Source: Primulina eburnea | Taxonomy: Eukaryota > Streptophyta > Magnoliopsida > Lamiales > Gesneriaceae | Direction: 5' to 3' | DNA: 64,000 nucleotides | NCBI RefSeq assembly: GCF_022965805.1 | Contig: NC_133117.1 | Span: 13,788,183 to 13,852,182 of the forward strand | Shown here: piece by piece, positions 17,393 to 60,600 of the stretch | Layout: the number at the start of each line of letters is the position of its first letter | How positions within the stretch are numbered: position 1 is the stretch's first letter | Translations under genes and position numbers: made by a program | The notes under the pieces: generated by a model | Told to the model about the DNA's origin: nothing | Databases searched by the model: none | What the model saw: the letters and a program-made list of their open reading frames with translations, nothing else

Positions 17393-17407
17393 TTTCTCCC
17401 CCTCTAA
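17393..17407 (-). other. E4 polypurine tract
   Basis: The minus strand reads TTAGAGGGGGAGAAA directly before the 3' LTR. Confidence 0.85.
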
Positions 17408-17493
17408 GAAATTATTTCGCCCTCAAAATCGCCCATCATTCTATCAATGAAAGCATCAAAAGTAATAGTATCAAAGTTAGATCAATACTTACA

Positions 17494-20400
17494 TTATTGA
17501 AATAACTCGGGGTGCTTTTGTCGTATGTTGGCTTCTGTCTCCCATGTCGCTTCCTCAATGCCATGACGACTCCACTGAAATTTCACGAGTGGAATATTCT
17601 TCGTTCTGTGCTTCTTTTCTTTCCGATCAAGAATCTGTATCGGTTGTTCCACATAGCTCAAGGTCTGATCAAGCTCAGCTTCGTCAGGCTGAATGACATG
17701 AGAAATATCTGGCATATACTTACGCAACATCGATACATGAAAGACATCATGTATCCCGGATAGAGAAGGAGGAAGTGCAAGTCGATAAGCTCGATCGCCA
17801 ATCTTCTCAAGAATCTCGTAAGGACCAATGTATCGAGGAGATAGTTTCCCGCGTTTGACAAATCGAACAACGCCTCTGAATGGAGAAATCTTTAAGAATA
17901 CTCTATCTCCCGCCTCAAAAACTAATGGTCTACGTCTGATATTGGCATACTTTGCTTGTCGATCTTGTGCTGTCTTCATCCTCTTCTGAATGAGTTTCAC
18001 CTTCTCTGTCATGTCACGAATCATATCTGGCCCAAGTTCTGGTACCTCTGAAACGTCATCCCAGTATAGCGGAGATCTGCACTTCTTGCCATACAAAGCT
18101 TCAAACGGTGCCATCTCGATACTCGTCTGATAGCTATTATTGTAAGAGAATTTGCAAAGAGGTAGGGAATCTTGCCAACCAATGCCAAAATCTAGCACGA
18201 CGGCTCTCAACATATCCTCTAAAGTCTGGATAGTCCGCTCTGACTGTCCGTCTGTCTGAGGATGGTAAGCAGTACTCAGGTGTAACGTCGTACCTAAGGC
18301 CTGCTGTAGACTGTGCCAGAAGTGTGAAGTGAATCGTGGATCACGATCTGATACGATAGACTTCGGTAATCCATGCAATCTGACTACCTCACGAATATAA
18401 ATCTCCGCCATCTGATCCTATCTATACGTCATTCTGTATGGGATGAAACAAGCAGATTTGGTCAATCTGTCAATAATAACCCAAATCACATCACAGCCTC
18501 GGGAAGATCGGGGTAACTTTGTCACAAAATCCATGGAAATGTGGTCCCATTTCCATTCAGGAATAGACAAACTCTGAAGTAACCCTCCGGGCTTCTTCCT
18601 CTCGGCCTTCACTTGTTGGCAGTTCAAACATTTAGACACAAATTAGGCAATGTCTGACTTCATTTGTTTCCACCAGAACTGTGTCTTCAAGTCATTGTAC
18701 ATCTTCCTGCCACCAGGATGAATGCTGAACCGACTACAATGTGACTCTGTCAGAATCTGCTGTCTCAAATCTGCAACATCTGGCACAACTAGACGGTTAT
18801 TCACGTACAACACATGATCTCGTACCTGATATTCTGATACATGCCCTGATCTGACCATTTGGATTGATTTCTGCACATTCTGATCGGTTCTTTGTGCTTC
18901 CTTGATCCTCATAATCAAATTGGGCTCAACTTGGATCGTAAAAAGTCGTAGTGGCTTACTATCTGTATCAAACTCTAATCCAGATGTACAGCAATTTTCA
19001 ACTAACTTGTTAACACCTATCGTCGATAAGGACAAAGAACATACCTTACGACTCAAGGCATCTGCTGCTGCATTTGACTTCCCTGGATAATATTTGATTT
19101 CACAGTCAAAATCTTTCAGAAGATCTAGCCATCTACGCTACCTCATGTTCAGTTCTGATTGAGAGAATAGGTACTTTAGGCTCTTGTGATCGGAGAAGAT
19201 CTCAAATTTCTCGCCGTAGAGATAATGACGCCAAATCTTTAATGCAAATACGATAGCCGCCAATTCAAGATCGTGAATGGGGTATCGAACTTCATGTGGC
19301 TTCAATTGTCTCGAGGCGTATGCGATCACATGACCTCGCTGCATAAGAACACATCCCAAACCTCTGTGAGAAGCATCACAATATACAACGAAATCACCCG
19401 TACCTGAAGGTATCGTCAGTACTGGAGCACTGGTCAGCCTTTTCTTCAACTCTAGAAAGCTAGACTCGCACTCCTCTGACCAAACAAATGGTGCATTTTT
19501 TTGCGTCAATTGAGTTATTGGCTTTGCAATGCTGGAGAAATCCTTGATAAATCTTCTATAGTATCCGGCTAGGCCCATGAAACTGCGTATTTCTGGTACA
19601 GAAGTCGGTCTTGACCAACTGATCACAGCTTCAACTTTACTCGGATCTACAGAAATACCATCTCCAGATATAATGTGTCCCAAAAAGACAACTCGATTCA
19701 ACCAAAACTCACATTTTGACAATTTAGCATACAGTCGCTCGTTTCTCAACGTCTGCAAAACAATTCTGAGATGCTCTGCATGCTCATTTCTGTTATTCGA
19801 ATACACCAAAATATCATCTATGAAAACGATCACAAAATCATCTAAATACCTCTGAAACACTTGGTTCATCAAGCCCATAAATACCGCAGGAGCATTTGTT
19901 AAACCGAAAGGCATGACAATAAATTCGTAATGTCCATACCTAGTTCGAAATGCTGTCTTCGGTATGTCTATATCTCGAACTCGGAGCTGATGATATCCAG
20001 ATCGCAAATCAATCTTAGAATACACAGAGGATCCCTGCAACTGATCAAATAGGTCATCGATCCTAGGCAAAGAATATTTATTCTTGATCGTTGCCTTGTT
20101 CAGTTGCCTGTAATCAATACACAAACGCATCGAACCATCTTTCTTCCGCACAAACAGCACCGGAGCGCCCCAAGGAGATACACTAGGTCTGATATATCCC
20201 TTGGCCAGAAGATCTTCTAACTGTGCTTTCAGTTCTTTTAGTTCGATGGGTGCCATCCTATACGGAGCTCTCGAAATAGGGACGGTACCTGGTGTAAGAT
20301 CAATACTAAAGTCTACCTCACGAACCGGAGGTAATCCTGGGATCTCATCTGGAAAAATATCAGCAAATTCCCGCACTACTGGTATATCTGCCAACTCCGG

Positions 20401-20650
20401 GCTCGACTTTTGCATATCTACAGCATAAATAAAGAAACCATCTGCTCCTTTTTGCAATAATCTGTTCATAGTAAGAGCCGAAATCAAGGGAATCCGAGAT
20501 CTGGAACCCTTCCCGTAGAATTTCCACTCGTCTGTCATCTCGGGTCTGAATCTGACAATCTTGTGGAAACAATCCACGGTAGCTCTGTACTTTGTTAGCA
20601 TGTCAATCCCGACTATACAATCAAAATCAGCCAGAACACTATACACTCTA
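17494..20650 (-). pseudogene. E4 pol: RT, RNase H, integrase, chromodomain-like tail
   Basis: A single frame holds reverse transcriptase ([30 protein letters not shown] with the DD pair), RNase H ([30 protein letters not shown]), integrase zinc domain, catalytic core (MDFVTKLP, SDRDPRF, GQSERTIQTLED) and the GPY/F region (RYIGPYEIL). The end (IPLVKFQWSRHGIEEATWE) resembles the Tekay/Del chromodomain, which is thought to target integration to heterochromatin. In-frame stops: TAG at 19138-19140 (Gln expected), TAA at 18643-18645 and TAG at 18418-18420. At the 5' side a frameshift near 20640 separates it from gag-protease. Terminator at 17494. Confidence 0.92.
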
Positions 20651-22025
20651 GGTCAATTTCATGCCCCTCAAACCGTAGAATGCAATGTCTAACCGTAGTT
20701 ACCGATATCAAACCACTTCCTAACGGAGAAGTAATAGACACGACATCTAGTAACGACTCAACAGGCAGAGAATGCAATAATGCAAATCGTTCTGATATGA
20801 ATGTATGCGATGCACCCGTATCTATCAATATATAAGCAGGATAACCGCAAAGGAAACAGTTACCTGCAATGACATCATCTGGGGCATCCTGTGCTTGCTC
20901 TTCAGTCAAGGCAAACACCTGAGCCTGTTGTCTCTGAGGCTGACTCCCTGGCTGGCCACCTCTGGTTCGAGGCTGGGTCTGTGTTGGTGGCGGCTGAAAT
21001 GAGTGAACAGATGAAGTTTGCCTCTCAGGCTGAGTCACGGAGGCAGACGATCCTGCAGCCTGGAATCTCGATGCACCACTTCTCTGAGGACAGACCTTGG
21101 CATAATGCCCCGGTTGCTTGCATACGTTACACCTGCCCACTACACCTTGACACTGTTCTGTGGCATGCTTGCCTCCACAAGTACTGCAATATCCACTTGC
21201 CACCTCTAGACTCTGGCCAAAACCTCTCTGTCTTGACCCGCTGGAGCTCGAAGAACTGCTCCCTGCCCTCTTAAACTGTTTACCCTTTGCTTTCAACTGA
21301 TCTTTGCGTCCGCTGCTGCTACCACCACTTTCGAATCGGGGAGGAGGTTGTACTGGAGGTAATGGCGGTCTTGGACTCGGAGCCACATACGGAACACTCC
21401 GTTGCCTAAGCAATCCTGCTTCAGCTCCTTTGGCACGATTCAATGCTTCAGTGAAATTATTAGGTCTCCCAGTATTGACCAATGTGAAGACATCAGGATT
21501 TAAGCCGTTTATAAACTGATCTGCCATGGCCTCATCATTGCCTGAAACGTGAGGTGCAAAGCGAAGCAAAGAAGAAAATTTAGCAACGTACTCTTCAATG
21601 TTCAATTGCCCTTGCCTCAGGTTTGCAAATTCAGCGCCTTTATCTTTGCGATAGGATACAGGGAAGAATCGCTGATAGAACTCCGTTTTGAATGCTTTCC
21701 ATGTAACCTTGGTGCCACGCTGTTCTAGTGCTCTCCTTATATTCACCCACCAATACTTAGCCACATCTTGCAGTTGATGGCCAATGAGTTTCACTCGTTT
21801 CTCGTCACTATATTCCAGAGACTCGAATAACATCTCGATATCCTCCAACCAGCTTTCACATTCAATTGCATTTTCTGTACCCTTTAAAGTCGGGGGTCGG
21901 AATGACTGGAATCGTTTTAATAGAGTCTCCATGGGCGTAGCAGTGACGTCCATCGTATCTCCGGATGTGCTACCCTGCTCTGGCGCTGGTGATCGTAAAG
22001 GAACGGCTGCTCTTCTAGGAGGCAT
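20613..22025 (-). CDS. E4 gag-protease
   Basis: An uninterrupted 470-codon reading from the ATG at 22023-22025 ([10 protein letters not shown]). Residues about 30-220 are the retrotransposon gag capsid domain ([24 protein letters not shown]). A Ser/Gly-rich linker follows, then two zinc knuckles ([13 protein letters not shown] and [14 protein letters not shown], about 285-315), a Gln-rich stretch, and a retropepsin with [12 protein letters not shown] (about 405). The reading ends early after a one-base frameshift near 20640; the expected next protease/RT residues ([11 protein letters not shown]) follow in another frame. Gag would form the virus-like particle; the protease is truncated here. 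Confidence 0.92.
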
Positions 22026-22270
22026 GTATCTAATAATCCAACTGATTAGAATACAAGATATACAACTGTCTCAGCCCTTCTCTAGTCAGTTACCTCTGAT
22101 CTAGAATCGGTTCTGATTCAGTCTTTACTAACACATGTTGTAATACAAGTCAGATAATCATACAACATGCAATAATGAAAGCACTAAATCATGCTAGCAC
22201 ATCATAAAGCAAGGAAGAAGACTCGATCTACCCCGCTCATTCTATTCTATCTCAATCTATAGAACTTATG

Positions 22271-22282
22271 GCTCTGATACCA
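22271..22282 (-). other. E4 primer-binding site, initiator tRNA-Met type
   Basis: The minus strand reads TGGTATCAGAGC, 5 bp from the 5' LTR end at 22288. Confidence 0.9.
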
Positions 22283-23792
22283 CCTGTTGTGGGGACCCGG
22301 GCTCTAATTCTTTTCTTTGGGATTAAAACGGATCATTAATATAAAAAGTGGGTCAAATTTTTGCTTTTACATTAACTCAAATGAAAGCTAACATAAGAAG
22401 TCTCTATGGTATTCAACAACATAATATACAAACATAAGATACAAATATGTCTGATTCCAAACCATATTCGACAACTAGTAATTAAATACAGTACATGCCA
22501 AAGGTACAACTACTAGTTCTTCTGCTATGCCCGAGATCACCACGCTATGTCCATCTCTCATCCTCTGCGTGACCCAGATCCTGCCCCACCTGTTGTTATG
22601 CACACATACAGACATAACAACAGCCGGAAAACCGGTGAGAACAAATCCCAGTATAAACATGTATACATGCATATAATCAATTAAACATGAAACATGCTAT
22701 CATGAATGACATCATATGCACATGCAATGCAATGCGAATCAAACCATGTCTGGACTCGACTCGACTAGAACTCTAGGGATCCCGGTGTGAATAAGACGTC
22801 ACTACCTACCCTCCAATCGGGGTAATGTACGTCTCATTCCTAGACTTCGGTCTGAGCTGTATCAACGGCGGCAATAAGAGTAATACCTACTCCTATGCTG
22901 AGATACACCGAAACGTCTAGCTATTTGACAATGCCTGTCAAAGACTCTCCTATCTTAGATGCAATGAATATCAATATGTAAACAAAGTATAATCATATTC
23001 ATATCTGAATATCACACTGATCATACATGCTTGAATACAATTCTGAAATCAAAGCATAAACATGTTAAAAGATTGAATATAATGCTATACACAATTCATA
23101 AACATGTTACAATCTATCTAATAATACTAGTATGTGATTTTGGTTGGGAAACTCAAATAATATCTTATTTGAGTTACATCTCCCCAAACAAAACATGACT
23201 TATACCTTTCGTCGTAGAATCGCTGTCACGGTCGTCAATACGAATCTGAAATGGAAATGTGGATACGCACTCTATCAATTTCTAATCTAAATCAACACAT
23301 AACCAAGTCACTACGTGATCTCAATACAATTTGACGGCATAACGACGTAATTCTCGATACCGGTCAATCCAAATCTCAACAAATATCAACACTATCTCAT
23401 TTTCAGTCATAATCTAATACAATATCCATCCAAAACACAATAATTCTGCCCCAATAATTCATAAACCATACTGAAATTCATAGGAAATGTATATGATATC
23501 ATTTCTTTGATCCGTTTACAAATATATTATGCTCAATACGTCAAGAACACAATATAACTAGCATACTCTCATTTCCTTAACATCTGAATTTCGAAACTTA
23601 CTGGAATCGAATAAAACTTACATCACTTTGTAGATAATGAAGAGAGAAGCTCAAAACCAATGTCGGATTTGAATTTGGATGAGTAAATCTTCTAAAATCA
23701 CAATTACAAGTGAAAGGAAACTTGAAAGCCTTTCTTCCTCAGAATTTCTCGATTCTTGCTACTGAAAATGAGAAGGAATCGTGGCAAATTTG

Positions 23793-23800
23793 TATATATA
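23793..23800 (-). promoter_or_regulatory. TATA box of E4 5' LTR
   Basis: The minus strand reads GGTATATATACA around this point. It lies 48 bp downstream of the nearest palindrome. Confidence 0.6.
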
Positions 23801-23848
23801 CCTTGCATGTTTTCGTACACATGGCAATCCATTTGGACTACACGTCTC

Positions 23849-24106
23849 GCGCATATGCGCGGCATTACTCGCGCATATGCGCCGCACCTACTGTCTCGGC
23901 AGATTTAGCACTCGCGCATATGCGCCACTAAACTCGCGCATATGCGCCAATGGTTCTGGACGCTCCGCGCATATGCGCCACTACTCTCGCGCATATGCGC
24001 CAAGGCTGCTGTACATGTCGCGCATATGCGCCACTCTTTCCGCGCATATGCGCCAATGCTACTGGAATTCTCATGCATATGCACGCATTCCTTCGCGCAT
24101 ATGCGC
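23849..24106 (-). repeat. GCGCATATGCGC palindrome array in E4 5' LTR
   Basis: Nine perfect 12-bp palindromes GCGCATATGCGC start at 23849, 23871, 23914, 23936, 23967, 23989, 24020, 24042 and 24095, plus one derivative TGCATATGCA at 24074. Start-to-start spacing alternates near 22 and 31 bp (22, 43, 22, 31, 22, 31, 22). Confidence 0.95.
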
Positions 24107-24262
24107 CATAGCTTCGGCCTTACTTATTCTTTTGACTATCTTTCACATCTTTATTATACATTTCCCTTTCTTTTCTAGTCCAATGAAATACATCTACAAT
24201 TATCTTAATTATCAACAAATCCATCTGATTATGATAACTAAATCTTCGAGCCTTACAGTTCC

Positions 24263-31712: not shown

Positions 31713-32692
31713 TGTTAGGATCGGTTATTGACTAAGGAGTGTTTAGAAGGGGGGGGGTTGAATAAAAACTTCTAGGAATTTAAATGTTTTTCGAAAAAGG
31801 TAGTTCAGTTTTGTTACAAACTGAACTAAGTATCCTGTCGGTCAATATCAATCAGTTAAACTGAATAAGCAGTTGCGGAAAATAAACTGATTGAAAGATA
31901 GAATATCTAATTGGAAATAAAAAGCTGAAGTAAAGATAACACCATATGTTTCTGGATGTTCGGAGAATTGAATAACTCCTACGTCACCCCTTCTATCACA
32001 AGGATAGGATATTCACTAAAAGACTTTGATCGAGTACAACGCTTGTACAGACCCACTTCAGTTAGGACTTATCTATTGCCTGAACTGAAACTCTTAGTAT
32101 AATACAATGATCTCTGTAAGTAACTGGACTTAGCACTTATCGAATTATCAATATTTCAGAGTGCTAGTTTGCTCAATGTGTAGCCTAGATTGCTACGAAT
32201 AGATCTGATAAGTGTGAGCTGAGATTTTGACAGAGTAATGGCAAGTTTGAGATTGGTCAATCTTATCTACTGTCAAATGCTCTTTAGTCATATTTATAGA
32301 CTTATCTTTCAACGGTAATTTTGAATTCTCGTATCCGTTGATTGCCACCTTATCATTTCTTGGACAATGTTCTTGATTGCCGCTTCATCATTTATTGTAA
32401 GACGGCGTATTAATCTCAATAGCCGAAATACGTTTTTCTATGCAGTGCGGATTTCCATATTCAGTTGCTGTCTGATATGTCTTTTTGTCTGTTGAATGAT
32501 CTTTCCCGAGGTATCTTCAGTTGAGAAGCTTTAATGTTTTCGGCTGAATGTTTTAACTGATCAGTTCTCAACTGATCAGTTTGTGTCAACTGATTTTAGT
32601 TGAATGTTCAGCTGCCGAATTTGCTTTCATGTACTAGTTGATTTGATCGATTGGTTTATGTTTTGTCAAACTCCAGAATTTAGTTTCCAACA
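31713..32692 (-). repeat. E3 5' LTR
   Basis: 980 bp, nearly identical to 12010-12997. Flanked on the right by the target duplication TAATC (32693-32697). Confidence 0.95.
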
Positions 32693-33245: not shown

Positions 33246-33821
33246 TGAGATGTCCCTTACTTTTAAATATAAAATATGGCAATTTTTTTCTTTATATAAT
33301 CATAAATCAGGAAATTTGAAACTCTCACTTTAAAAATAAACTCAACATTTAAAAATCTTTAATTGCATAAAATCTCACAAAACTTCAACCGTAAAACGTC
33401 CATTTAAAATATTTCAAGACTAAACCTCAAAACAAAGCATAAATATTTAATAAAATAATTATCAAAATCTTTACTTTAAATTTAAAGTTAAGTCTACTAG
33501 TGCGAAAAATGAAAGTCTAATGACTCAGCACGTTCTAACCATACATAGCAAATAGTACATATACAGACACATGATGCTCTAAAATAAATCTTTTAATAAA
33601 ATAAATTGACGTAAAAACTCGTAAGCGTATTTAAATACGTAATATCATCAGCTTCTTTAGTGTAAATTTTTTCACATACAACATCATAAATCATTTCCTC
33701 ATCATATATCATTTTGGGTGAAATTTGATCCTTGAAAGTGACTATTCTTTATCCGTTATCATTCATCCTCTGGTCGAGTGATCAGTCTATATACACAAAG
33801 TAACTTGGGGCGGGGTGTCAT
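33246..33821 (-). repeat. E2 5' LTR, inner part (interrupted by E5)
   Basis: Begins TGAGATGTCCC on the plus strand and is AT-rich. It is cut by E5 at GTCAT (33817-33821) and continues at 43157. Whole LTR about 2.3 kb. Confidence 0.8.
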
Positions 33822-35974
33822 TGTTAGAGTAGTTGCCCGTCGAGCCAAGTGTTGGCCGAGTGTTCACAATGAAACTCTATGTATAACCATCTTTATTTTA
33901 ATAATATTTGAAATTATTGTTTTGGCAAATCTTTATCTGTATACCCATGCTAGCTGCATAGATAAAGCCCTTGAATATACAAATAGTAGAAAGAATATGA
34001 GATGCTCATATGATGAGTATCATGAAACTCATATTTGGAATACAGCATATTCTAAAAAGTTCCTAGTCGATTCAGTCGCCACTAAGAAGAATATAGGCCG
34101 CTCGAGTTTGAGACTAGTATCTACGATGTGAGTACCATGTTTCATTGGTAGGGGACATTGTGATGTCCGAGCATGCAGATACGTGCTCCTGGTAGAGTGC
34201 ACTGAACAACCCTCCATAAAAGGACTTTCCAAGTGGTTCTCACTTATCGAGTGGGAACGTCCTAGTTTATGGATGTACAACATTAGTCCTTATGACCTGG
34301 GACAACATTGAGATTCTATGTGCTAGAATTACACTTTGACTTGTTTACCGACTCTCATGGGGTCATCAGGTGGCAAGGTTGGGTGTTCTGTCGAAACATA
34401 TAGGAGTCGATGCATTGTAGTCGGGGATTCACCGCTTACCTTCGGGTATGGATATCCTATGTGTTATCATGTGTATGTAGGTTGAAATCTCTGATCAGAT
34501 TATGGTGGTAATTATGAAAGGGGTTTCATAGATTACACCATCGATGCAACTACGACATGACACTTAGTATCGATTCATTGACAACTCTCGATATACCAAT
34601 GGTTGTCGAATCGGTCGGGATATATGAGTTGAAGGGACCGTACTGTACGCTAACCATAATTGAATGGTTCTTGCAGGCACTATCATTTGATACCTAGGGA
34701 ATCATGTAAGCGATGATGCTAGGCGTTTAACATGACTGGTTGGGTACTATCAGACTTGAGTTTTGACGTTCTTGTTATCAAGGAGTTGATAAGTAAGAAT
34801 GGAGCAATTGGGGTATGCTCATATAAGGACATGTTTAGTCCGAATCACATGGAGATGTGAACCCACGGCTAGTTGTATCAATGAACCATTGAGGGCCACA
34901 CAAGTACTAGCTTTCTAGATCCCGTTGAGAATTAAAATAGTTCAATGTGTTGAACGGCTTATAAAGGAGTTTATAAGCGTAAAGAAAAATTAGAAGTATG
35001 ACTTCTATAAAGGAGAAAATAGTTCAATGTGTTGAACGGCTTATAAATGAGTTTATATGCGTAAAGAAAAATAGAAGTATTACTTCTATGAGAGAAATGT
35101 AAATTTTGATTTATGAATGTGTTCCTAAATTAAAAGTTGGCCAAGTGAATAATGTATTTGAAAATTGTGATTTTCATAAACATTATTATGGACTAAATTA
35201 AATTAATTCAAGTGTTGAATTAATTAAACACTAGTGGACCTAGTAGAGTCTAAATAATTAAATTAATTAAAGTGTTTAATTAATTAAATTATATTGAGTC
35301 TTGTAGAGCTCAATTTAAATAAATTATTTAACTAGTGGACTTGAGTAAATTCAAGTAATGTTTAATTAATCTCAAAAATGTTTGAGATAATTAAATTAAG
35401 TCCATGGATTTTTAATTTGTTAAAAACCATATAATATATGCATGCATGGGAGGTGAAGGGTTGGAGACTACTTTTTGTGTTATCAAGGCATGGCATGCAA
35501 AAAGGTGTTTTTGCTTTTAGTTTTTTGCAAGTCCAAGACAAGTCTCCCTTTCCCATTACACACTCTCCATGGCCGAAACTTGCACATGATTCTCTCCCAT
35601 TTTCTCTCAATTTTTGTTCTTCAATTTGTTGAGGAAGAAATATAATTCAATTTGAAAAATCCTCTTAATTTTCTAGTACAAATTAAGAGGGGATCTACCT
35701 AGTTGGTGGTGGTCTTAATAGTTGAGCAAGGAGTGCTCAAAGGAAGCTTGAAGATTGTTTCTACCATTGAAGAGCTAAGGTGTTTACACCTTAGTTGGAG
35801 CCATACATCAATCCTTGTGATTGATAGGTACATTTCTTAACACACTATGAATGTCATTTTGTGTTTATTGTATTTGCTACACATTATATAAGGGGTGGCC
35901 GAAAATATTCCATGAAAAATCAAATTTTATAAACTTCCGTTGCGCTTCCGGTCACCGTAACCGATCCCCTTTCA
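33822..35974 (+). repeat. E5 left LTR, plus orientation (inverted relative to gag-pol)
   Basis: 2153 bp; starts TGTTAGAGTAG and ends GATCCCCTTTCA. By eye it is roughly 93-95 percent identical to the reverse complement of 40998-43151 where compared. It contains a tandem duplication of about 72 bp near 34938-35100, shared with the other copy. No gene inside; short readings recur antisense in the other LTR. Confidence 0.93.
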
Positions 35975-36009
35975 ACTTGCACTAGAGCCAACTACCCATA
36001 TGCTTCAAA

Positions 36010-38340
36010 CCCATTGAATAATGGTCCAGGTAAAGGCTTAGCTAGTGGATCAGCAACATTATCTTTGGATCCGACTATGTCAAAAGACACTTCTTCCTCT
36101 TTCCACAATCTCTCCGAGGATGTGGTACTTTCTCAATACATGTTTGGACTTTTGATGAGACCTTGGCTCCTTTGCTTGAGCTAAAGCTCCCATGTTGTCA
36201 CACAACACCGGGACATGAGCAACTCCATTAGGAATGACGTCCAACTCTTAAACAAAATTCGTTATCCAAAAAGCCTCCCTTGCTGCATCTGATGCAGCAA
36301 TGTATTCGGCCTCTGTGCTGGAATCCGCAGTTTTGTCTTGCTTGGAACTCTTCCAAGAGACAGCAGCACCATTGAGCATGAATACAAACCCAGAGGTTGA
36401 ATTCGAGTCATCGATATCGCTTTGGAAGCTAGAGTCGGTATAGCCTTCCAATTTCAGTTCTCCACCCCATAGACCAAGAACAATTTATTGGTCCTTCTCA
36501 AATACTTGAGGATGTCTTTCACAACTTTCAATGTGGAAGACAAGGGTTCGATTGATATCTACTCACTACACTTAGTGCGAAAGCCACGTCAGGACATGTA
36601 GATATCATCTCATACATGATGCTACCAATCGCAAATGCATAAGGAATGCTTGTCATCGCCACTATCTCCGCATCAGTCTTGGGAGACATAGACTTGGATA
36701 GGGACACGCCATGACACATTGGTAGATGTCCTCTCTTGGACTCATCTATCGAGAACCGCTTCACGATGGTATCAATGTATGTGGACTGGGTGAGACCAAG
36801 CAATCTTCTTGATCTATCTCTATAGATCTGTATTCCCAATACAAAAGATGCTTCACCCAAGTCCTATATCGAGAACTCACTTGCTAACCATATTTTAGTT
36901 GATTGCAACATTCCTACATCATTCCCAATGATTAGAATGTCATCAACATACAGCACCAGGAATGTCACAGCACTCCCACTGACCTTATTATACACACAGG
37001 GTTCCTCAGGATTCTTAGTAAAACCAAACTCTTTGATTGTACTATCGAATCTAAGGTTCCAACTCCTAGATGCTTGCTTTAGACCATAAATGGATCTTTG
37101 AAGTTTGCATACCATATGCTCACTTCCGACAGATGTAAACCCTTCAGGTTGAGACATGTAAATCTCTTCTTTAATATCCCCATTAAGAAAGGCTGTCTTG
37201 ACATCCATCTGCCATATCTCATATTCATACCATGCAGATATGGCTAGCAATATCCTTATGGACTTGAACATCGCAACTGGAGAAAAGGTTTCCTCAAAGT
37301 CAACTCCTTGTCTTTGAGTTTATACTTTTGCTACCAATCGCGCCTTGAAGGTCAATACCTTCCCATCCGCCCCAAGTTTCCTCTTGTAAATCCATTTACA
37401 CCCTATGGGAACAATTCCCTCAGGTGGATCCACGAGATTCCACACTTGGTTCGAATGCATGGAATTCATCTCAGATTCCATTGCTTCAAGCCACTTTGGA
37501 TTAATCGGCATCAGATAATGCTTCCTTGAAGGTCCTTGGATCACATCCATGGATAGGCTCATCATGGCCCTCTTCAAGAAGCAGAACATACATCATAGGT
37601 GGTCTCGAGACTCTCTCGGATCTTCTAGGAGCTTGTATCTTCTCTCTTGGCTCTTCGGGTGTGGGTTCTATAATTGTGGGTGTCTCTCGAACTTCTTCGA
37701 GTTCTATCATCTCCCCTTTTCTATCCAATAGAAATTCCTTTTCCAAAAAGGTTGCATTCCTAGAAACAAACACCTTTGTTTCTTGGGGATGATAGAAATG
37801 ATATCCAATTGAATTACTTGGATATCCCACAAATAAACATAAAATGGATTGACTATCTGTCTCCCACTACCTGCTTCACATAAGGAGGGCACCCCCATAT
37901 TCTAAGATCATAATATTTGGGTGGCTTACCCATCCATATCTCATATGGTGTCTGCCTATAAATGGACAATTAGTGGAATATCTTTCAATTTTAAGTTATA
38001 GAGATCGTTTTCAAGTTCACCAGTACCAATCAAACATTCATTCTTGTAAATATTGCAAACACCTTTGCTAAAAAAACAAGAATATCCATCTTTATCAACA
38101 TAGAAATGGAAACAATGTTTTTCAAAAAATTAGGTACAAACAAAACATCTCATAAAATTAACTTAAAACTATTGTTCAACAATAAGTAAACATATTCAAT
38201 AGCCTTGGCAGCAACTCTTGCTCCATTGCCCATCCTCAAGAAGGTCACACCTTCCCTAGGCCTCCTACTTCTTTCCATCACCTATAACTCATTACAGAGA
38301 TGTGAGCCACAACCGGTATCCAATACCTAAGAAGTAGAGT
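36010..38340 (-). pseudogene. E5 pol remnant lacking the integrase core
   Basis: Protease VLDTGCGSHLC lies near 38300-38335. About 320 bp later the reading jumps near 37965-37990 from the pre-integrase spacer to YRQTPYEIW, which normally follows the integrase catalytic core, so the zinc domain and DDE core are missing. Then PRRSERVSRPP, RT (CKWIYKRKLGADG, MDVKTAFLNGDI, LYVDDILIIGND with DD), a stop-containing link, and RNase H ([28 protein letters not shown]). The 3' end is broken by frameshifts and stops. It ends at 35975, next to the reversed LTR. Confidence 0.85.
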
Positions 38341-38413
38341 TAATTGAAATGTTTACTTTATTTTAGAACATACTGTTTCCAGAACTCTGCTGGGCCAGAT
38401 ATTCCTTGCAATT

Positions 38414-39229
38414 TCAACTCCAATGTCCAGGCTTCTTGCAGTGATGACAAACATCACTAGTCTTGTCAGCCTTAACTGGTGTGGCTGCCACAACGGGATT
38501 CGGAGATTGCCTCAACAAGGGCATGTTCTTCTTGGGACGTTGGAAAGAACGCTTCTTTCCCTTCCCATGTGGATCAATCTTCGTACCAGATGAAGAACCA
38601 ACATAAAGAACCAACTTCTCTTTCTTGATGGTTGATTCAAACGTAACAAGCATATTCACCAACTCCTCAAGGGTCGGCTCCATCTTGTTCATGTTGAAGT
38701 TCACCACAAAAGTATCAAATTAGCTAGGCAGCGATAAGAGCAACACGTCTGTGGTCAACTTCGAAGGCAAGATCAGATCCATGCCAACGAGCTTGTCCAC
38801 GAGCCCAATCAACTTCAGGCCATGCTCATGGACCGAGGCCCCATCTCGCATGCTCAAAGTGATCAGCTCCTTGTCGGTAGCATGCCTAAGAGGCCGTGTT
38901 TGCTCATCAAAGAGCTCCTTGAGATGCAAATGAATGTCAGCAGCACACTTTGCATCCTCAAAACGCCTCTGCAGCTCATCATTCATAGAAGTCAGCATAT
39001 AACACCTGGCTATCAAGTCATGGTCACACCATTCCTTGTAAGCATGCAATTCCTCAGGAGTGCAGTCAGTCGGAGCCTCAACAGGGGGCGACTCAGTCAG
39101 TGTATATGCTACCCTTTCCGAATTCAAGACGATTTTTAGGTTTCTTAGCCAAGTGAGGTAATTAGGTCCAGTTAATATGTGTTTGTCGAGTATTACGGAT
39201 ATCGGATTGCGAATCGAAGACATTTTCAA
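38414..39229 (-). pseudogene. E5 gag
   Basis: Copia gag: MSSIRNPISVILDKHILTG start (about 39223), LTWLRNLKIVLNSE, ELFDEQTRP, then TLEELVNMLVTFES and a zinc knuckle CHHCKKPGHW near 38420-38450. A stop at 38720-38722 splits it and a TGA at 38414-38416 cuts the knuckle. The protease follows in E5 pol. Confidence 0.8.
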
Positions 39230-40983
39230 TTTGTATTGAAAAGTTAAAACAGATAAATGTTGATGACTATTTTAAAATATTTAGTAAGATATGAAGTTTG
39301 GACTTTTACTTCATAAATATTTGTTCCCACTGTTTTGACATCTTTCACTACCCTCTAGTGAAAACGGGAAACTCCTTTCCTCAGTAGGTACGTAAGGTCC
39401 AATTAGCGAATTATGATCCCGAATAATATCAGCCAATCACAATTCCTAAAAGATAGTTTCCAATTGCATCACAATGCAACCCTCTACGTAAACTTTTGTC
39501 TCACGTTTGATTAGGACCCAATAATATGACGTCATTCATCTTCACGTGTCAAGCCTTACCCATCGATGTTGAACCTTGATGGACGGTCGCCATGAGTTCC
39601 CCCAATAATATGAGCCAAAATCATGGGAATTTCACGTAGTTCACATCACCATGTCAATGGATGTCACAGCTTTCCGTTACCCAGAGCTCCACCAATAATA
39701 TGAGCCGAGCCCCGAGTACGGGTAGCGTTCATCATGCACCCATTGTCGATGGAAGACATGGAAATTATAAACAAATTTATAATTCCTCTTTTCGGGCTTG
39801 ATATTAATTTTGCATCTTATTCAAAATGAGGGTTTTTTAATTTTGAAAGGTCTCATCATTAATTTTATTTAAAAGCTCGTCATGTTTGATCGTATGTTTG
39901 CCGGATTCATGCAACTTTGTTATTATCATAATAATAACGCACATACTCATTATTTATAACATATCATGCATATATTATAAACAGTAAACAAAACAAGGAT
40001 GATCAATCGCCCCAATACTAATGGCCTGTGTGAGCTAAACACGGGCCTAGGTCCAATCCTAGGAAAATGCATGGGATGCAAATGCAACTATTACATTAGC
40101 TTCAAATATTTACATGTCTTCGATCTTCATAATCATCATGGCCACCATCTTCCAATCTTGATCATCCACTATACTAATATTTACAAATAAATATCCATGG
40201 CAAATACGGATACATCCCATGGGGGTGGGAACGGACCATAAACCAAACCCACTTTAAATTTGATAATTATTACAATCATTCAACACAAAATATCCTAGCA
40301 TACACCTAGAAAATTGGGCTTGGGCTTTTGATCATCCTTCATGCATAATATCTCATATCATACACCATCAATTAATTATCACAATAATTAATCGATCCAA
40401 TATTATATATCTTGATCCAATCACTAACCGCCACGATTATAAACTCAATTAACAAGTATACAAACACCTTTGTCTACTTTCCAATTAATTTATTTATAAC
40501 CGAATTTCTTATAAATCACAATTTACTATAAATAATTAAAGTCCAATTTCAATTATTTATTTTATGAGAAAAAATTTGCAACTTTTGTAATTTTAAACTT
40601 AAGGGCCCAAAAACTTATTTTTCACCAAAAACATTTTGGCCCATTTAAAATTCACAAATATGTTAGCCATCTAATGGCCCAAAAACTCAAGGCCCATGAC
40701 ACTTTGATTATCCAAAGAACTTTTGAAACCCTAGTCGTCATCGCCGTCGCCGGAGCTCCGTCGCCGGATTCCGGCCAACTTGGGAAAATTTTTTTTTTTT
40801 AATAAAATGTAGGGGCTGTTCGGGCAGCCCCTCGGACAACCCAAGCTGCCCGAAATGGGCAGCAACTAGCTGCCCAAAATTCCCCGAAACCGGCCTTGAT
40901 TCGATGCAAAATTTTGTTCTCATGCGGTTAGAAATCGATCTCAACATAATATCTTGTAATTGCTACACAAAATCGTAACCATA
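39230..40983 (-). other. E5 leader, 1.75 kb without a gene
   Basis: Unusually long for a copia leader. It holds a degenerate repeat with the motif CCAATAATATGAGCC at about 39421, 39526, 39601 and 39691, spaced roughly 75-105 bp, and a GC-rich stem-prone stretch at about 40735-40910 (repeats of CAGCCCC and GCTGCCC) beside a T-run. No ORF of note. Confidence 0.6.
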
Positions 40984-40995
40984 GCTCGAATACCA
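40984..40995 (-). other. E5 primer-binding site, Met-like with mismatches
   Basis: Minus strand TGGTATTCGAGC, two bases from the right LTR end at 40998. It marks the right LTR as the 5' LTR of the minus-strand gag-pol. Confidence 0.7.
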
Positions 40996-40997
40996 CT

Positions 40998-43151
40998 TGA
41001 AAGGGGATCGGTTACGGTGACCGAAAGCGCAACGGAAGTTTATAAATTTTGATTTTTCATGGAATATTTTCGGCCACCCTTATATAATGGGTAGCAAATA
41101 CAATAAACACAAAATGACATTCATAGTGTGTTAAGAAATGTACCTATCAATCACAAGGATTGATGTATGGCTCCAACTAAGGTGTAAACACCTTAGCTCT
41201 TCAATGGTAGAAACTATCTTCAAGCTTCCTCTGACCACTCCTTGCTCAACTATTAAGCCCACCACCAACTAGGTAGATCCCCTCTTAATTTGCACTAGAA
41301 AATTAAGAGGATTTTTCAAAGAGAAGTATATTTCTTCCTCAACAAATTGAAGAACAAAAATTGAGAGAAAATGGGAGAGAATCATGTGCAAGTTTCGGCC
41401 ATGGAGAGTGTGCAATGGGGAAGGGAGACTTATCTTGGACTTGCAAAAAGCTAAAAGCAAAAACACCTTTTTGCATGCCATGCCTTGATAACCCAAAAAG
41501 TAGTCACCAACCCTTCACCTCCCATGCATGCATATATTATATGGTTTTTAACAAATTAAAAACCCATGGACTTAATTTAATTATCTCAAACATTTTTTAG
41601 ATTAATTAAACATTACTTGAATTTACTCAAGTCCACTAGTTAAATCATTTATTTAAATTGAGCTCTACAAGACTCAATATAATTTAATTAATTCAACACT
41701 TGAATTAATTTAATTATTTGGACTCTACTAGGTCCACTAGTGTTTAATTAATTCAACACTTGAATTAATTTAATTTAGTCCATAATAATGTTTATGAAAA
41801 TCACAAATTCAAATACATTATTCACTTGGCCAACTTTTAATTTAAGAACACATTCATAAATTAAAATTTACATTTCTCTCATAGAAGTAATACTTCTATT
41901 TTTCTTTACGCTTATAAACTAATTTATAAGCCGTTCAACATATTGAACTATTTTCTCCTTTATAGAAGTCATACTTTTAATTTTTCTTTACGGTTATAAA
42001 CTCCTTTATAAGCCGTTCAACACAATGAACTATTTTTACTTCTCAACGGGATCTAGAAAGCTAGTACTTGTGTGGACCTCAATGGTTCATTGATAAAACT
42101 AGCCGTGGGTTCACATCTCCATGTGATTCGGACTAAACATGTCCTTATATGAGCATACCCCAATTGCTCCATTCTTATTTATCAACTCCTTGATAACAAG
42201 AACGTCAGAACTCAAGTCTGATAGTACCCAACCAATCATGTTAAACGCCTAGCAGCATCGCTTACATGATTCCCTAGGTATCAAATGATAGTGCCTGCAA
42301 TAACAATTCAATTATGGTTAGCGTACAGTACGGTCCCTTCAACTCATATATCCCGACCGATTCGACAACCATTGGTATATCAAGAGTTGTCAATGAATCG
42401 ATACTATGTGTCATGTCGTAGTTGCATCGATGGTGTAATCTATGAAACCCCTTTCATAATTACCACCATAATCTGATCAGAGATTTCAACCTACATACAC
42501 ATGATAACACATAGGATATCCATACCCGAAAGTAAGCGGTGAATCCCCGACTACAATGCATCGACTCCTATATGTTTCGACAGAACACCCAACCTTGCCA
42601 CCTGATGACCCCATGAGAGTCGGTAAACAAATCAAAGTGTAATTCTAGCACATAGAGTCTCAATGTTGTCACGGGTCATAAGGACTAATGGTGTACAACC
42701 ATAAACTAGGACGTTTCCACTCGATAAGTGAGAACCACTTGGAAAGTCTTTTTATGGAGGGTTGTTCAGTGCACTCTAACAGGAGCACCTATCTGCATGC
42801 TCGGACATCACAATGTCCCCTACCAATGAAACATGGTACTCACATCGCAGATACTAGTCTCGAACTCGAGCGGCCTATATCATTCTTAGCGGCGGCTGAA
42901 TCGACTAGGAACTGTTTAGAATATACAGTATTCCAAATATGAGTTTCATGATACTCATCATATGAGCATCTCATATTCTTTCTAATATTTTGTATATTCA
43001 AGGGCTTTATCTATGCAACTAGCATGGGTATACAGATAAAGATTTGCCGAAACAATAATTTCAAATATTATTAAAAGAAAGATTGCTTATACATTGAGTT
43101 TCATTGTGAACACTCGACCAACACTTGGCTCGACGGGCACCTACTCTAACA
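40998..43151 (-). repeat. E5 right LTR (5' LTR of gag-pol)
   Basis: 2154 bp. On the minus strand TGTTAGAG...CCTTTCA, flanked outside by GTCAT. Inverted copy of 33822-35974. Confidence 0.93.
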
Positions 43152-43156
43152 GTCAT

Positions 43157-44881: not shown

Positions 44882-45880
44882 CAGTGACATTCCTAGTACT
44901 TTATGTTGATGATATCCTACTCATTGAGAATGATATGGGATTACTGCAATCAACTAAAGCATGGTTAGCAAGTTAATTCTCTGTAAAAGACATGGGTGAA
45001 GCATCATATGTATTGGGAATACAAATCTGTAGATATAGATCAAAGAGGATGTTGAGGCTCACTCAAGCGACTTATATCGATAGAATTCTGAAAAGATTCT
45101 CAATAGAAGTGTCCAAGAGAGGATATTTACCAATGTGTCATGGTGTTACTCTATCTAAAGAAATGTGCACCAAAACTGGTGAAGAGATAGAGATGATGTC
45201 ACATATTCCATATGCGTCGTCCATTGGTAGTATAATGGATGACATGATATCAACGTGCCCTGGTATTGTTTACGATTTGAGTGTTACATGAATATATCAG
45301 GTGAACCCTAGTCCAATGCATTGGTAGGCTGTGAAAGATATTGTTAAGTACCTAAGGAAAACTAAGAACTTGTTCATGGTCAATGAGGGTGGATGAATAA
45401 AATGGAAAGGCTGCACTGATTCTAGCTTTCAAAGTGATGTAGCGATTTGAAATCGACCTCTGGTTTTGAATTCATGCTCAATGGTGTGGCTGTCTCTTGG
45501 AAGAGTTTCAAGCAACACACTATTGAGGATTCCACGATTGAAGCTAAATACGTTGTTGCATCTGCTGCAGCAAAAAAGGCATCTTGGACGAGGAATTTCC
45601 TCAAAGAGTTGGGCATTATTCTTAATGAAGTTGATCCAGTCTCGGTGTACTGCGACAACACTGGTGTGGTTGCACAAGAAAAGGAAGCAGGGTCGCATCA
45701 TCGATGAAAACATATACTGAAGAAATTACACATCATCCCGGAGATTGTGGGCAGATGAATATTTCAGTCAAGAGAGTCAACTCTGCAGATAACATTGCTA
45801 GTCCACTTACAAAGCCCTTTCCAGAACCATTGTATGAGAAGCATCAGGAAACAATGTGATTAAAGTTTATGGATAGTTGG
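44882..45880 (+). pseudogene. E6: copia RT-RNase H relic, same family as E5
   Basis: Begins in mid-RT at FLVLYVDDILLIEND because E2 inserted here; the 5' part lies outside the window. Then DMGEASYVLGIQI, LPMCHGVTLSKEM, IPYASSIGSIM, several stops, RNase H fragments (TIEAKYVVASAAA, YCDNTGVVAQ) and the terminal PLTKPFPEPLYEKH-like end. It closely matches the E5 pol reading and shows what an unaltered 3' end of the family looks like. Confidence 0.8.
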
Positions 45881-45898
45881 TTCTAGGGCAAGTGAGAG

Positions 45899-47350
45899 AT
45901 TTTTAGAGTAGATGCCCTGTAAACAAACGATTGGCTATGTAATTTATTGACTCAGTTGTAATTAACATTCTTTATTTTAATATAATTCACATTTCATGGT
46001 TTTCATTTTGTTTTATCTGTATACCCATGTAATCGACATAAATAAATACATTCATTATACGTTAATACAAATGAATCGTAATTCAATTTTAAAACTCATT
46101 TGTAAACACTGTACATTATAAATTTGTTCCTGGTTGATTTAGCAGTCTAAAAACAAGGATAAATGCCACTTGAGCTTGAGACTAGCTTCTGTGATGTTAT
46201 GTACTATATTTCATGGTAAGGGAATATAGATGTCCAATCATGTAGATGGACAATTTTATGATGATTTTACCGAACAACCCTCCCTTAGACTTTTCAAGTA
46301 ATTATCATTTATCGAGAAAAAAAGTATGTGGTTATGATTGTACATCATTAGTCCTTGCAACCCGAGAAAACATTGAGGCTCTACATACTAGGATTTTTCT
46401 TTGACTCGTTTTTCAAGTTCGCGAGGGTTACGAGGTGGCGAGGTTAGGTACAATTGCGACATATGTAGGAGAATGTGCATAGTAGTCATGAAACCACCGC
46501 TCACTTACAAGTGTGGATATCCTATGTGATCTAATGAAGTATTAGCACATGAAATCTCTGGCCAGAGTATCAGATGTATGGGATCAGGATTCTCTAGTTG
46601 TGCATGGGATGACACTATGAATATTTCATGAACACATCAAATATCTATCGAATCTAATATACAATTGTCGATGAACTAATGGTTGCAGATTCTATTTGGA
46701 CATATGAGATGAAGAAACTGTAATGTACGTTAATCATAACCGATTGGTTCTTGCAGGTACTATCAGTGATCCCTAGGGAATCATGGGAGGATGCTCGCTT
46801 TTATCATGATTCGATGGTTTTAATTAAAAAATTATTTCTAACATTCTCATTATCAAATGTGGGTACATAGAATGGGGCAAATAATGGTAAGCCCTAAAGG
46901 ACAATGTCCCGAATTACAAAGAGTTTGGAACCCACGGCTAGCTGTATCCCTAGACCATTGATGGTCACAAAACACTGGATCATTTGTTACCGTTGAGACA
47001 ATAAATTCAATGAGTTGAATTTATAAAAATTATGAGATAGTAAATTAAAGGAGTTGAATTTATGATAACTAAAATTTGGAGAGAATAAATTCAAGAAGTT
47101 GAATTTATGAAAATTGATAGTTTAAAATATTAAAATCAAAAGGTGAGTTTATGAAAGATTAAATTAAATGTAATGAGCGTATGTATAATAGAATTGCAGT
47201 AGTACAAGTTCAACATGCTAATTAATTAAAGCCCTTAATGGACTTTGATATATTAATTAATTAAACTTGAAACGTCTACTATTTAAAATATTACTATTTC
47301 TTTTTTTTGTAAACTAAATCTAAAAAAATATCTTTTTATGCATGCATGCA
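45899..47350 (+). repeat. E6 3' LTR, truncated and diverged
   Basis: Preceded by the purine-rich GCAAGTGAGAGAT. It begins TTTTAGAGTAGATGCCC, a decayed TGTTAGAG start, and tracks the E5 LTR in order (ATACCCATG, target of AACAACCCTCC, ATCATTAGTCCTT, TATGCATGCATG) at low identity. Similarity fades near 47350. Confidence 0.65.
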
Positions 47351-56193: not shown

Positions 56194-57601
56194 TTAATCA
56201 TCTTTAGTATTATCTTTAAGAGATTTCTTCAAACTTTCAAATATATCCTCAATTTGAGATAATTGAGGAATATCCTCATCTGGATCCTGTGCATCATGCA
56301 TCTTCATTAGATGTATGAATTGATTATCACTGGAATCTGAAGCCATTGATTGGTCTGATTTTGAATCGGAGCATCCCATATTCTTATAAAGATCTTTTTT
56401 CATTTCATCAATGTAGATTTCTACCATCTTTTCTTTAGAATAGATCTCTGAATATTTTTGAGTCAGAATTTTAAATGGACTCATTGCATCTTTTTCTTTT
56501 TGTTGTTGATTCAACAAATCTTTCTGATATGAAGAAATTTTTTCTTCCATTTGAAGTAAGGTGTCATGACCATGAAGTTTTCCAGATACTGGATCTTCTC
56601 GTAACATTTTATCCCAAAATTTTGTAGAGCTAGTTCTCCATAGACAAGGGATACCTTCATCTGTATAACCAAATTCTGGCTGCCATTTCCAGATCCATGG
56701 AATACCGAATTCCGTGAAGAATAGACATAAAGTCTTTCCATCAATCCAATGTTCAGAAAAACTTTTTTGTAATAATTGGTGCAACATTCAACCAAGTATC
56801 GAATGGTTTTATAAAAACTTCTGGCAAAATCTTTGCTGATGGACCAAATATTTTCCACCAAATAAAAAACCAATTTGGAATAGGATAATTGAAAACATTT
56901 TCACAAATCTTAAGAAACCATGTATGTTTCCTTTTTTTCATTTTCATACAGTAAAGTTTTATTAAAACTTTCAATATAATCCCAGAAATTGAATTTAAAA
57001 CTGGTTTTATGATTTTCTGAGTAAAACTCTTTTTCAACCAATGGAGATATACCCCATTCTTCAATAGATATAATCTTTTTAATAATAAACTTAGAGAAGT
57101 TATAACTTCCTTTTTGTTGAGTATTACTGAAAAAGTGAGTAATATCAACACTTTTTGTAGATATGAGAAGATTCTCATAATATCCTCGTTGCTTATAAGC
57201 ACCATATACATATGATGTATTGGTAAAATATCTTTCCATAATAATCCAAGGAGTTTTTTCCCATTGGATATCTTTTTCTTCTATAAGAAGAATTAATTCT
57301 TTATGTTTTGACTCTGTATAAAGAGCTGTATCATTATCATCTTTTTGATGATATTAGCATATGATGCTGAAGACTGAGAATCAGAATTATTTTTCTGCTT
57401 TTGTTTCAAGAATTCTTGAAATTCATTATATAACTCATTCTGCTCAGTATTACTGGCTGATGACGAATTAGATAAATTCTGGGCTATTAGCCTCTGTTTA
57501 CCATGTTGAGCAATAATATTAGGGGGTTTTCCCCTGCCACCTCGCCCTCTATAAGAGGACTCTCCTCTGCCTCGGGAGTTCATATCTGTAGATAAAAACA
57601 T
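56194..57601 (-). pseudogene. E9 downstream ORF, broken by frameshifts
   Basis: The ATG at 57599-57601 overlaps the polyprotein stop (TAATG). The first part (to about 57330) is Arg/Gly- then Ser/Gln-rich. The rest is spread over three further frame segments, changing near 57250-57330, near 56940 and near 56765. The middle is rich in aromatic residues (WFFIWWKIFGPS, IPWIWKWQPE) and the C terminus is helical and acidic. Position after RT/RNase H is where caulimovirids often encode the translational transactivator/inclusion protein, but I cannot confirm that identity. It is not translatable as one protein here. Confidence 0.55.
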
Positions 57602-60600
57602 TAAGATAAATATTCTCGAGTTAAGAAATCTGGTAGATGATTATCCTCACCTTTTTTATAAATAATCTCAAAATCAAAAGGAGCTAAATGAGTCTGCCAT
57701 CTAGCAAACATTTGCTTAGACACATCATGTTTAAAATCTTTATTAAACATAAATTTTGCAGTTTTGCAATCAGTTTTTATAATAAACTTTTGATTATATA
57801 AATCATCTTGAAATTTTAAAATACATCTAACAATAGCTAAGATTTCTTTTGCTACTGTGGAGTAATTTTTCTGGGCATTATTCCACTTTCCAGAATAAAA
57901 TCTTATAAGATATTCTTGTTTTGTTTGAGGATCTTTTTGTTTTAAAATTCCTCCAAAACCTATATCTGAGGCATCAGTTTCTACAATTTTATCCCATAAA
58001 GGATTTGCCAGCATAAGACAAGGAAGATTTTTAACTTTATCTTTAATAATTTGAACAGCTTTAGTATGCTTCTCTGTCCAAGGTAAAGGATTTTTCTTCA
58101 GTCTATCATATAAGATAGCAGAATCTTTAGTAAGATTTTGAATATAAGGAGAAATATAATTTAAACTCCCTAAAAATCTTTGTAACTGAGTTTTATCAGT
58201 TATTATATCTGGAAATTTTGAACCAAATTCAATACTTCTTTGGATAGGAATTATTTTTCCTTTTTCAATCATATGACCAAGAAAACGAATATTAGTTTGG
58301 AATAAAATCATTTTAGATTTTGAAATAACTAAACCATTTTGAATAACAATATTTTTAAACATTTCTAAATGTTTAAAATGTGTTTCAATATCATTAGAAA
58401 ATACTAAGATATCATCTATATAAACAATTATAAAATTGCTATAGTTATAAAAAATATCATTCATAATTTGTTGAAATTCTGAAGGGGCATTTTTAAGGCC
58501 AAATGGCATTACTGTCCATTCATAATGTCCTATTGGAACATTAAAAGCAGTTTTATATCTATCAGATTCTTGTATTTGAATCTGCCAAAATCCTGATTTT
58601 AAATCAAATTTGGAAAATATAATTGCATGAACTAATCTGTCTAATAAATCTTTTTTATTAGGAATAGGATGTCTAATCCATTTCAAAACCTTATTAAGAG
58701 GTTTATAATTTATAACTAATCTAGGAACTCCTCTTTCCTGCTCTGAATGTTTATTAACATAAAAAGCAGTACAAGACCAAGGAGATTGAGAAGGTTTTAT
58801 TAAACCTTTATCTAACAAAGAATGAATTTCATTCTTGCATAATTCTAAATATTCAGAATTCATTTGACAAGGACGAGCCTTAGTAGGAATATTTCTCTCA
58901 TCAAAAGTTTCTTCATATGGAAGAGATATAATATGCTTCTTTCTATTCCAAAAAGCATTTGGAAGATCATTACATATTTCTAATGAAAATTTATTATAAA
59001 TAATTTTTATTTTTTCCTGTAATTTAGGATTCTGTAATTTTTCATCAATTGTAAGAAATTTTATTTCTTCTTTTAAAGAGTTTATTTGAAAGGTTTTTCT
59101 TTCAATCTGTTCTTGTAGCTCATTTAAAATTCTATAAACAGGTTTAGTTATAAACTGAAAAGAAATAGGATTACCTTGATAAGTTCCTATTATACCTGTT
59201 TCATCAACATGTGTTAAAGGATAAATTTGATAAATAAAAGGAAGACCAAGTATTAGTTGGCTAGAAATGTCTTTAGCTAATAAAAAACTGGTTTGAATAC
59301 AGTTTTTATCTTTGCAAATATAAGCTTTAGGTAATTTATAATTTATTTCTAAAGGTTCTCCTCCTGCATGAGAGAGAGAATGAGTAGTTTTATGAAAATA
59401 TTTTGTAGGAATTAATCCTTCCTGTATTACGTTTAAATCTGCACCACTATCTATCATAGCAATGAAATTCTTTTTATAAGAATTATCAATTAATAAAGTA
59501 ATATTAGTATACCATTTTTGAGATATAATCATACTCAAAACAGATAAATGTTTCTGATTATTATCAGGAAATGAAATATCTTGAATATTTTCAAAACTTT
59601 CAGAAATTGAATTATTATGATTTTCAATGACTGAAATACGATAATTTAAACTATTATTATTATCATGTAAAAATTTTATTTGTTGTTTAAGATTATCAAT
59701 CTCTTTAACTAAATCCTGTATAGTAACTGGATTTTGTTGGCTATATTTTTTCTGTAAAAGATTTTTAACTTCTTTCATAGAATAAGCTTGTTCTTGTTTA
59801 ACAAGAATGTTATTATCATTATTGCTTGTTGAAGCAGTATTTTCCATTTGATCAATAATTGTAGATTTTAATATTGGGTCCTTAATCATTTTAAGGAATT
59901 CTAAAATATTATTGTTAGTTAAAACATTAATATTTAAATCTTGAAATTGAGACATAAGTTTATAAAACTCATCATTTTTATTAATATCCTCTATAGGACT
60001 TATACAAGATTTTCCCTGTATACAATTATTGCATTCTTCTAAATCAGAAATATCTGATTCATTATCCAGAATTTCTTCTGAATTATAGGATTCTGAAGAA
60101 TTCTCAGTTTCACTATCAGAATTATTATTTGAATCCGTTATTATTTTAAATAATGCTTCTTTTAGATTATCATCTATATCTAAATTATTAATTTTGTTTT
60201 TAGCCCAACATTGATTAGCATAATGTCCTGCCTTTTTACATTTTCTACAAATTATTAATTTGTTTTTGTATTTATCTTTTTTCCTATCAGCTTTAGCTGA
60301 TTCACGAATTTCTTTTCTTTTCATTTTTCTTTCTTTTTGTCTTTCAGACAAATGTCTTTTCTTATAAATCTTATCATCCTTATCTTTAATTTTCTTCTTA
60401 CCTTTATTAGGTAAGTCCATACCAAATTGATCACAAAATTTTCCTAACTGTTTTTTCTCTAGTAAATTTTGTCTTTTAATTTGATTATTTAATTTTAATT
60501 CATTACAGAGAGCTAAACCCTCTAGAATACAAGTATTAATCAAATTACCATAAGTATAATTATCATAAGAGATATTTATATCATCTTTTCTTAATACTTT

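Follow-up and report, generated by a model that had tools for sequence, protein, structure and literature searches.

Self-attack of complementary DNA (cDNA) is usually thought to be a dead end for elements with long terminal repeats (LTRs). Processed CA ends that attack internal DNA give deletion or inversion circles (PMC2644782), Ty autointegration can yield a circle with two inverted LTRs (PMC4751563), and in fungi, a study of extrachromosomal circular DNA deduces autointegration of several LTR elements, whose circles are truncated and have one LTR (PMC9694575). We analyzed a stretch of 64,000 nucleotides from Primulina eburnea (assembly GCF_022965805.1, contig NC_133117.1, positions 13,788,183 to 13,852,182 of the forward strand; hereafter the window, in which all positions are counted). 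It contains an element, E5, whose two full-length LTRs are inverted relative to one another. Like the inverted two-LTR circles of retroviruses and Ty1, E5 has an LTR terminus joined to internal DNA in a manner that looks like integrase chemistry. The products of autointegration are described as nonproductive, extrachromosomal circles (PMC2644782), whereas E5 is linear, integrated, and flanked by a target-site duplication.

Other described elements share part of this layout. The elements of Triticeae, rice, and maize attributed to template switching (Sabot and Schulman 2007, PMC1950507) resemble E5 in that an aberrant cDNA underwent one integration with a 5-bp duplication; however, they consist of three LTRs and two internal regions, and no inverted LTR is described for them. 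The terminal repeats of DIRS-1 are inverted, as in E5 (PMC5633606), but DIRS elements use a tyrosine recombinase, whereas E5 has a Copia-type gag and reverse transcriptase (RT). Membership in DIRS was rejected, as the 5-bp duplication is present and no tyrosine recombinase match was found in the E5 fragments scanned against Pfam (20 of the 22 internal fragments of at least 45 amino acids, plus ten fragments of at least 20 amino acids within 37700-38420). With Copia (Ty1-copia) elements, E5 shares gag and RT (PF14223, PF07727), a primer-binding site (PBS) after the 5' LTR, TG...CA ends, and the 5-bp duplication; it departs from them in that the LTRs are not in direct orientation, the polypurine tract (PPT) is lost, and no integrase core was found. 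Because its LTRs are inverted, we call E5 Copia-derived and not a standard Copia member. No report of an integrated, duplication-flanked element with inverted LTRs was found in the literature searched, which was available in part and excluded most subscription journals. The papers found deal with DIRS-1, a marker method, an LTR insertion in an intron, and yeast LTRs belonging to separate elements (PMC5633606, PMC2151762, PMC8786324, PMC3536649, PMC3554576, PMC5065131).

E5 is a decayed Copia-type element on the minus strand, located at 33822-43151. Its right LTR (40998-43151, minus strand, 2154 bp) was delimited by self-match and by reading its edges, and its U3 end is the right outer end of the element. 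The left LTR (33822-35974, plus strand, 2153 bp) was recognized as a reverse-complement match to the right one; its U3 end, TGTTAGAG, points outward and its U5 end, CCCTTTCA, points inward. Aligned end to end as reverse complements, the two LTRs are 96.5% identical, with 71 substitutions and five one-base gaps in 2156 columns. A self-comparison of the window returned nine matches of at least 100 bp, three of them above 90% identity; among these three, only the match of 33822-35988 to 43151-40984 is inverted, and the other two (15400/22288 and 12010/31713) are direct.

Comparison of the flanking 5-mers revealed GTCAT on both sides of E5, at 33817-33821 and at 43152-43156. A 5-mer matches at one given place by chance with a probability of about 0.001. 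The 5-mers at the inner LTR edges, ACTTG and CCACT, are unlike the outer ones, and both outer ends are intact U3 termini. Two intact U3 ends within one shared 5-bp duplication point to a single concerted integration through these ends; therefore, the flip of the LTR most likely preceded the integration of E5. Which LTR was flipped follows from the internal region. The PBS adjoins the right LTR, the internal 3' end adjoins the left LTR, and gag, an SH3-like domain, and RT run from right to left. This arrangement identifies the right LTR as the proper 5' LTR and the left one as the flipped copy. The original prediction, made from the letters alone, had described inverted full-length LTRs of these lengths, a GTCAT duplication around two outer U3 ends, and an internal region that agrees with the right LTR only. 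The end-to-end alignment, the differing inner edges, and the PBS position with the domain order uphold all three.

The abnormal junction lies at 35974/35975, where the terminal CA of U5 abuts the internal sequence at the 5' edge of the PPT; the expected tract, GRGAGAT, is missing. The internal end of E5 reads GTGCAAGT and is followed directly by TGAAAGGGG, the reverse of the U5 end. The flipped LTR ends in CCTTTCA like the normal one; the next bases are AC, which belong to the internal sequence, versus the AG spacer beside the normal LTR. The U5 end was thus joined without its 2-nt spacer. A processed CA end joined to internal element DNA, as autointegration predicts, is therefore present, with one base ambiguous. 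Autointegration would also duplicate the internal target sequence from one attack point to the other; in E5, the second copy of it is expected to have been in the part that the final integration removed. Junctions carrying the spacer or a copy of the PBS differ from the observed one; the match to the processed end was built from the observed letters and is not an independent test. A search with the 23-mer spanning the junction gave no matches in the viral_contigs collection, which says little since that collection consists of viral contigs.

The loss of the tract was recognized by comparison with E6 (44884-47019), a truncated relative of E5 that matches its internal 3' end and part of its LTR. 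Identity is about 72% over 1014 bp of the internal region and about 68% in the LTR; the RVT_2 match in E6 is below the cut-off (20 bits). The internal region of E5 at 35975-36968 aligns with 45893-44884 of E6. The E6 counterpart of the junction, from 45886, reads GGGCAAGT, then GAGAGAT (45894-45900, plus strand), and then the LTR start TTTTAGAG; E5 lacks the seven nucleotides that E6 holds at this place. A pattern scan for the PPT matched only in E6, with two mismatches, and 29 of 100 shuffled sequences matched as well, so the evidence for the tract is its homologous position and not the pattern. The suggestion that the flip sits exactly at the edge between internal region and LTR, at the cost of the purine tract, was borne out by this comparison, with the U5 terminus exact to within one base.

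In the reading that we favor, with about even confidence, E5 is a chromosomal fossil of autointegration, in which the U5 end attacked its own cDNA at the edge of the PPT before integration. The plus strand is naturally interrupted at the PPT, since plus-strand synthesis starts there. We infer the following order of steps. In the linear cDNA, integrase would first have processed the 3' LTR at its U5 end, exposing CA-OH, and this end would have attacked, instead of chromosomal DNA, the minus strand of the same cDNA at the 5' edge of the PPT, opposite the plus-strand break presumed at the tract. One attack would suffice because the other strand is already open there. It would detach the LTR duplex and rejoin it back to front, leaving an outward U3 end with a tail of about 7 nt complementary to the PPT. 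Once repair had sealed the junction, integrase would have removed the tail and used the two U3 ends to insert the molecule, thereby creating the 5-bp duplication. Because the E5 copy is without an integrase core, the enzyme would presumably have acted in trans; alternatively, the core was deleted later than the insertion. An attack on the minus strand at the PPT would explain at once where the junction lies, why the tract is lost, and why the U5 end is exact; the U5 terminus found there resembles a product of integrase, consistent with strand transfer. Autointegration by a U5 end had already been proposed with the original prediction, and both the anatomy on which that proposal rested and the attack by a U5 end stand; the target, which had been placed at the edge of the LTR itself, we now place on the minus strand opposite the PPT break. 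A 2006 title by Garfinkel connects Ty1 autointegration with a central DNA flap.

Several points weigh against autointegration at the PPT. Integrase would have to trim about 7 nt rather than 2. The evidence for the flip comes from one copy, E5, and its junction may be read as CA or, if the spacer already begins with the next A, as CAA. The similar numbers of changes in the two LTRs, given below, would be expected also of LTRs from two copies of one family. In Ty, a junction analysis gave no signs of autointegration; a single read out of six mosaic ones was compatible with autointegration leading to truncated circles, and no read was compatible with an inverted two-LTR circle (PMC4751563).

A related but unlikely route involves both cDNA ends, which would attack at the PPT to form an inversion circle; integrase would later have opened this circle again at its U3-U3 joint and integrated it. 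Such circles are documented (PMC4751563, PMC2644782), and their reopening is possible, as the integrase of spumaviruses cuts two-LTR circles at the palindromic LTR-LTR junction (PMC1180852). The route calls for one more opening step, and the joint to be opened would have a spacer of about 12 nt; the route also leaves the break at the PPT unexplained, beyond the fact that no other break would be integrable. We prefer the single attack at the PPT because it gives the linear form directly and explains why the junction lies at the PPT.

A jump during reverse transcription is improbable to the same degree. Plus-strand strong-stop DNA (U3-R-U5) would have parted from its template on reaching the U5 end, and its extension as minus strand would have resumed on the RNA or DNA immediately upstream of the PPT; the resulting cDNA would have U3 at either end. 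The 3' end of strong-stop DNA should bear AG and a copy of the PBS, both of which are absent from the E5 junction, and pairing at the switch would have been only about 1 nt. The product would nonetheless have the same outline as E5, and template switching has been proposed for other duplication-flanked complex plant elements (PMC1950507).

Somewhat less probable again is end joining, in which a break at the PPT freed the 3' LTR and host repair religated it in reverse before integration. Host repair alone would suffice, and a break at the PPT is plausible given the plus-strand discontinuity. The junction lacks CT, which a whole, unprocessed end should have left there as the complement of the AG spacer; end joining after 3' trimming is compatible with the missing CT.

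An assembly error, or two separate insertions that resemble one element, is very unlikely. The E5 LTRs differ at 71 of 2151 sites (Kimura two-parameter distance 0.034), versus 11 of 1974 and 8 of 980 in the direct control pairs, a difference that would also fit two insertions. A misassembly is not expected to delete the PPT and cut at the end of an LTR. The original prediction had named a chance GTCAT around separate insertions as a case that would undo it. Such insertions would need both the improbable 5-mer match and exact adjacency. Two independent insertions were rejected on account of that adjacency, the shared outer duplication, and the lack of a duplication around either LTR by itself.

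Local genome inversions happen, but an inversion of the left LTR after normal integration is the least probable explanation of all, since both breaks would have to fall exactly on the ends of the LTR and leave the outer duplication intact. Homologous recombination, whether between the LTRs or between neighboring elements, was rejected, as it keeps the local order and cannot flip a single LTR.

The differences between the E5 LTRs are spread along their length (Kolmogorov-Smirnov p=0.12). With E6 as reference, 44 of the 71 differences could be polarized over 1322 columns, assigning 22 to the left LTR and 16 to the right, with 6 unresolved (binomial p 0.42); these counts fit equal aging since one event. 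The inverted LTRs show no sign of gene conversion with each other, since the differences leave no long identical block (the longest is 125 bp). Transversions (39) outnumber transitions (32), and transitions in CG context are few (5). This ratio is low for methylated plant DNA. The control pairs, with 8 transitions and 3 transversions and with 3 and 5, hold too few changes for a comparison with E5.

A duplication-flanked copy with inverted LTRs would suggest that products of autointegration can re-enter the chromosome, and that a pair of U3 ends can serve integrase in vivo. Programs that find LTR elements search for direct repeats, and a class with inverted LTRs may for this reason be overlooked. 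We consider it possible, if rather doubtful, that an element can in some cases survive autointegration: one attack by a U5 end at the PPT break would yield an insertable linear molecule with two U3 ends, leaving a class of inverted-LTR copies that escape such programs and could silence their own family through their facing promoters.

The flipped LTR contains a TATA-like box at 35885-35891 (plus strand), 90 bp from its U5 end, that points into the internal region in antisense. The TATATA boxes at 35885 (plus strand) and about 41086 (minus strand), each about 90 bp from the U5 end, face each other; a second TATA-like match lies at LTR position 1221. Judged by these motifs, it is plausible that two putative LTR promoters face each other across about 5 kb of internal sequence and give double-stranded RNA, which makes the layout of E5 a natural candidate source of such RNA. 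The two LTRs share 969 of the 2133 21-mers of the left one. Mu killer of maize is likewise a rearranged element, in which an inverted repeat could give rise to double-stranded RNA; in that case a hairpin made by readthrough was proposed (PMC3440606), whereas in E5 facing promoters are predicted.

The internal region of E5 (35975-40997, minus strand, 5023 bp), characterized through fragment translations and Pfam scans, is decayed and holds, from right to left, the PBS, a long leader, gag, and RT. The PBS, TGGTATTCGAGC, was read at the edge of the right LTR (40984-40995, minus strand), 2 nt (AG) past the CA of U5, and we take it to be complementary to the initiator methionine tRNA. The arrangement of AG and TGGTATTCGAGC resembles that of the Copia neighbor at 31713, which has AG and TGGTATCAGAGC. 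Matches above the curated Pfam cut-offs are gag (Retrotran_gag_2, PF14223, open fragment 38723-39271, minus strand), the SH3-like domain, and RT (RVT_2, PF07727, fragment 36867-37319, minus strand). A zinc knuckle, between gag and the SH3-like domain, the Pol_BBD match of the protease region (E 0.073), and the start of the SH3-like domain (E 0.0091) are below the cut-offs. RNase H presumably follows RT, as judged by eye from its motif; the fragment concerned has no Pfam hit.

No rve match, which an integrase core upstream of RT would give, was found in the 20 longer fragments or in the ten short ones from 37700-38420. The expected site is the gap of about 160 bp (37930-38089, minus strand) from the end of the Pol_BBD match to the start of the SH3-like match, both of which anchors are below the cut-offs. 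An integrase core and the domain preceding it are too large for such a gap. We read the missing core as a deletion in a Copia-derived copy, and in its present state E5 cannot supply integrase.

The leader (39272-40997) extends for about 1.7 kb between the PBS and gag. Its longest open fragment is 74 amino acids, and seven scanned fragments contained no domain above the Pfam cut-off. A protein search with E5 gag returned 49 matches, the best from Henckelia pumila (71% identity over 99%), and the named matches are mostly from Henckelia and Primulina; the host is thus probably a member of the Gesneriaceae. The second match, a protein from Zingiber officinale (63% identity over 96%), stands amid mostly Gesneriaceae matches and is possibly due to horizontal transfer or contamination.

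Two elements of the window with direct LTRs carry matching duplications (TAATC/TAATC and GTTCC/GTTCC) and look as expected. One is a Copia-type element at 12010-32692, flanked by TAATC, and the other, flanked by GTTCC, is nested within it at 15400-24257. On the minus strand at 57601-61926, an open reading frame of 1441 amino acids, scanned in five pieces, contains Caulimovirus coat, aspartic protease, RT, and RNase H domains; by its domain content, it is an endogenous pararetrovirus-like sequence.

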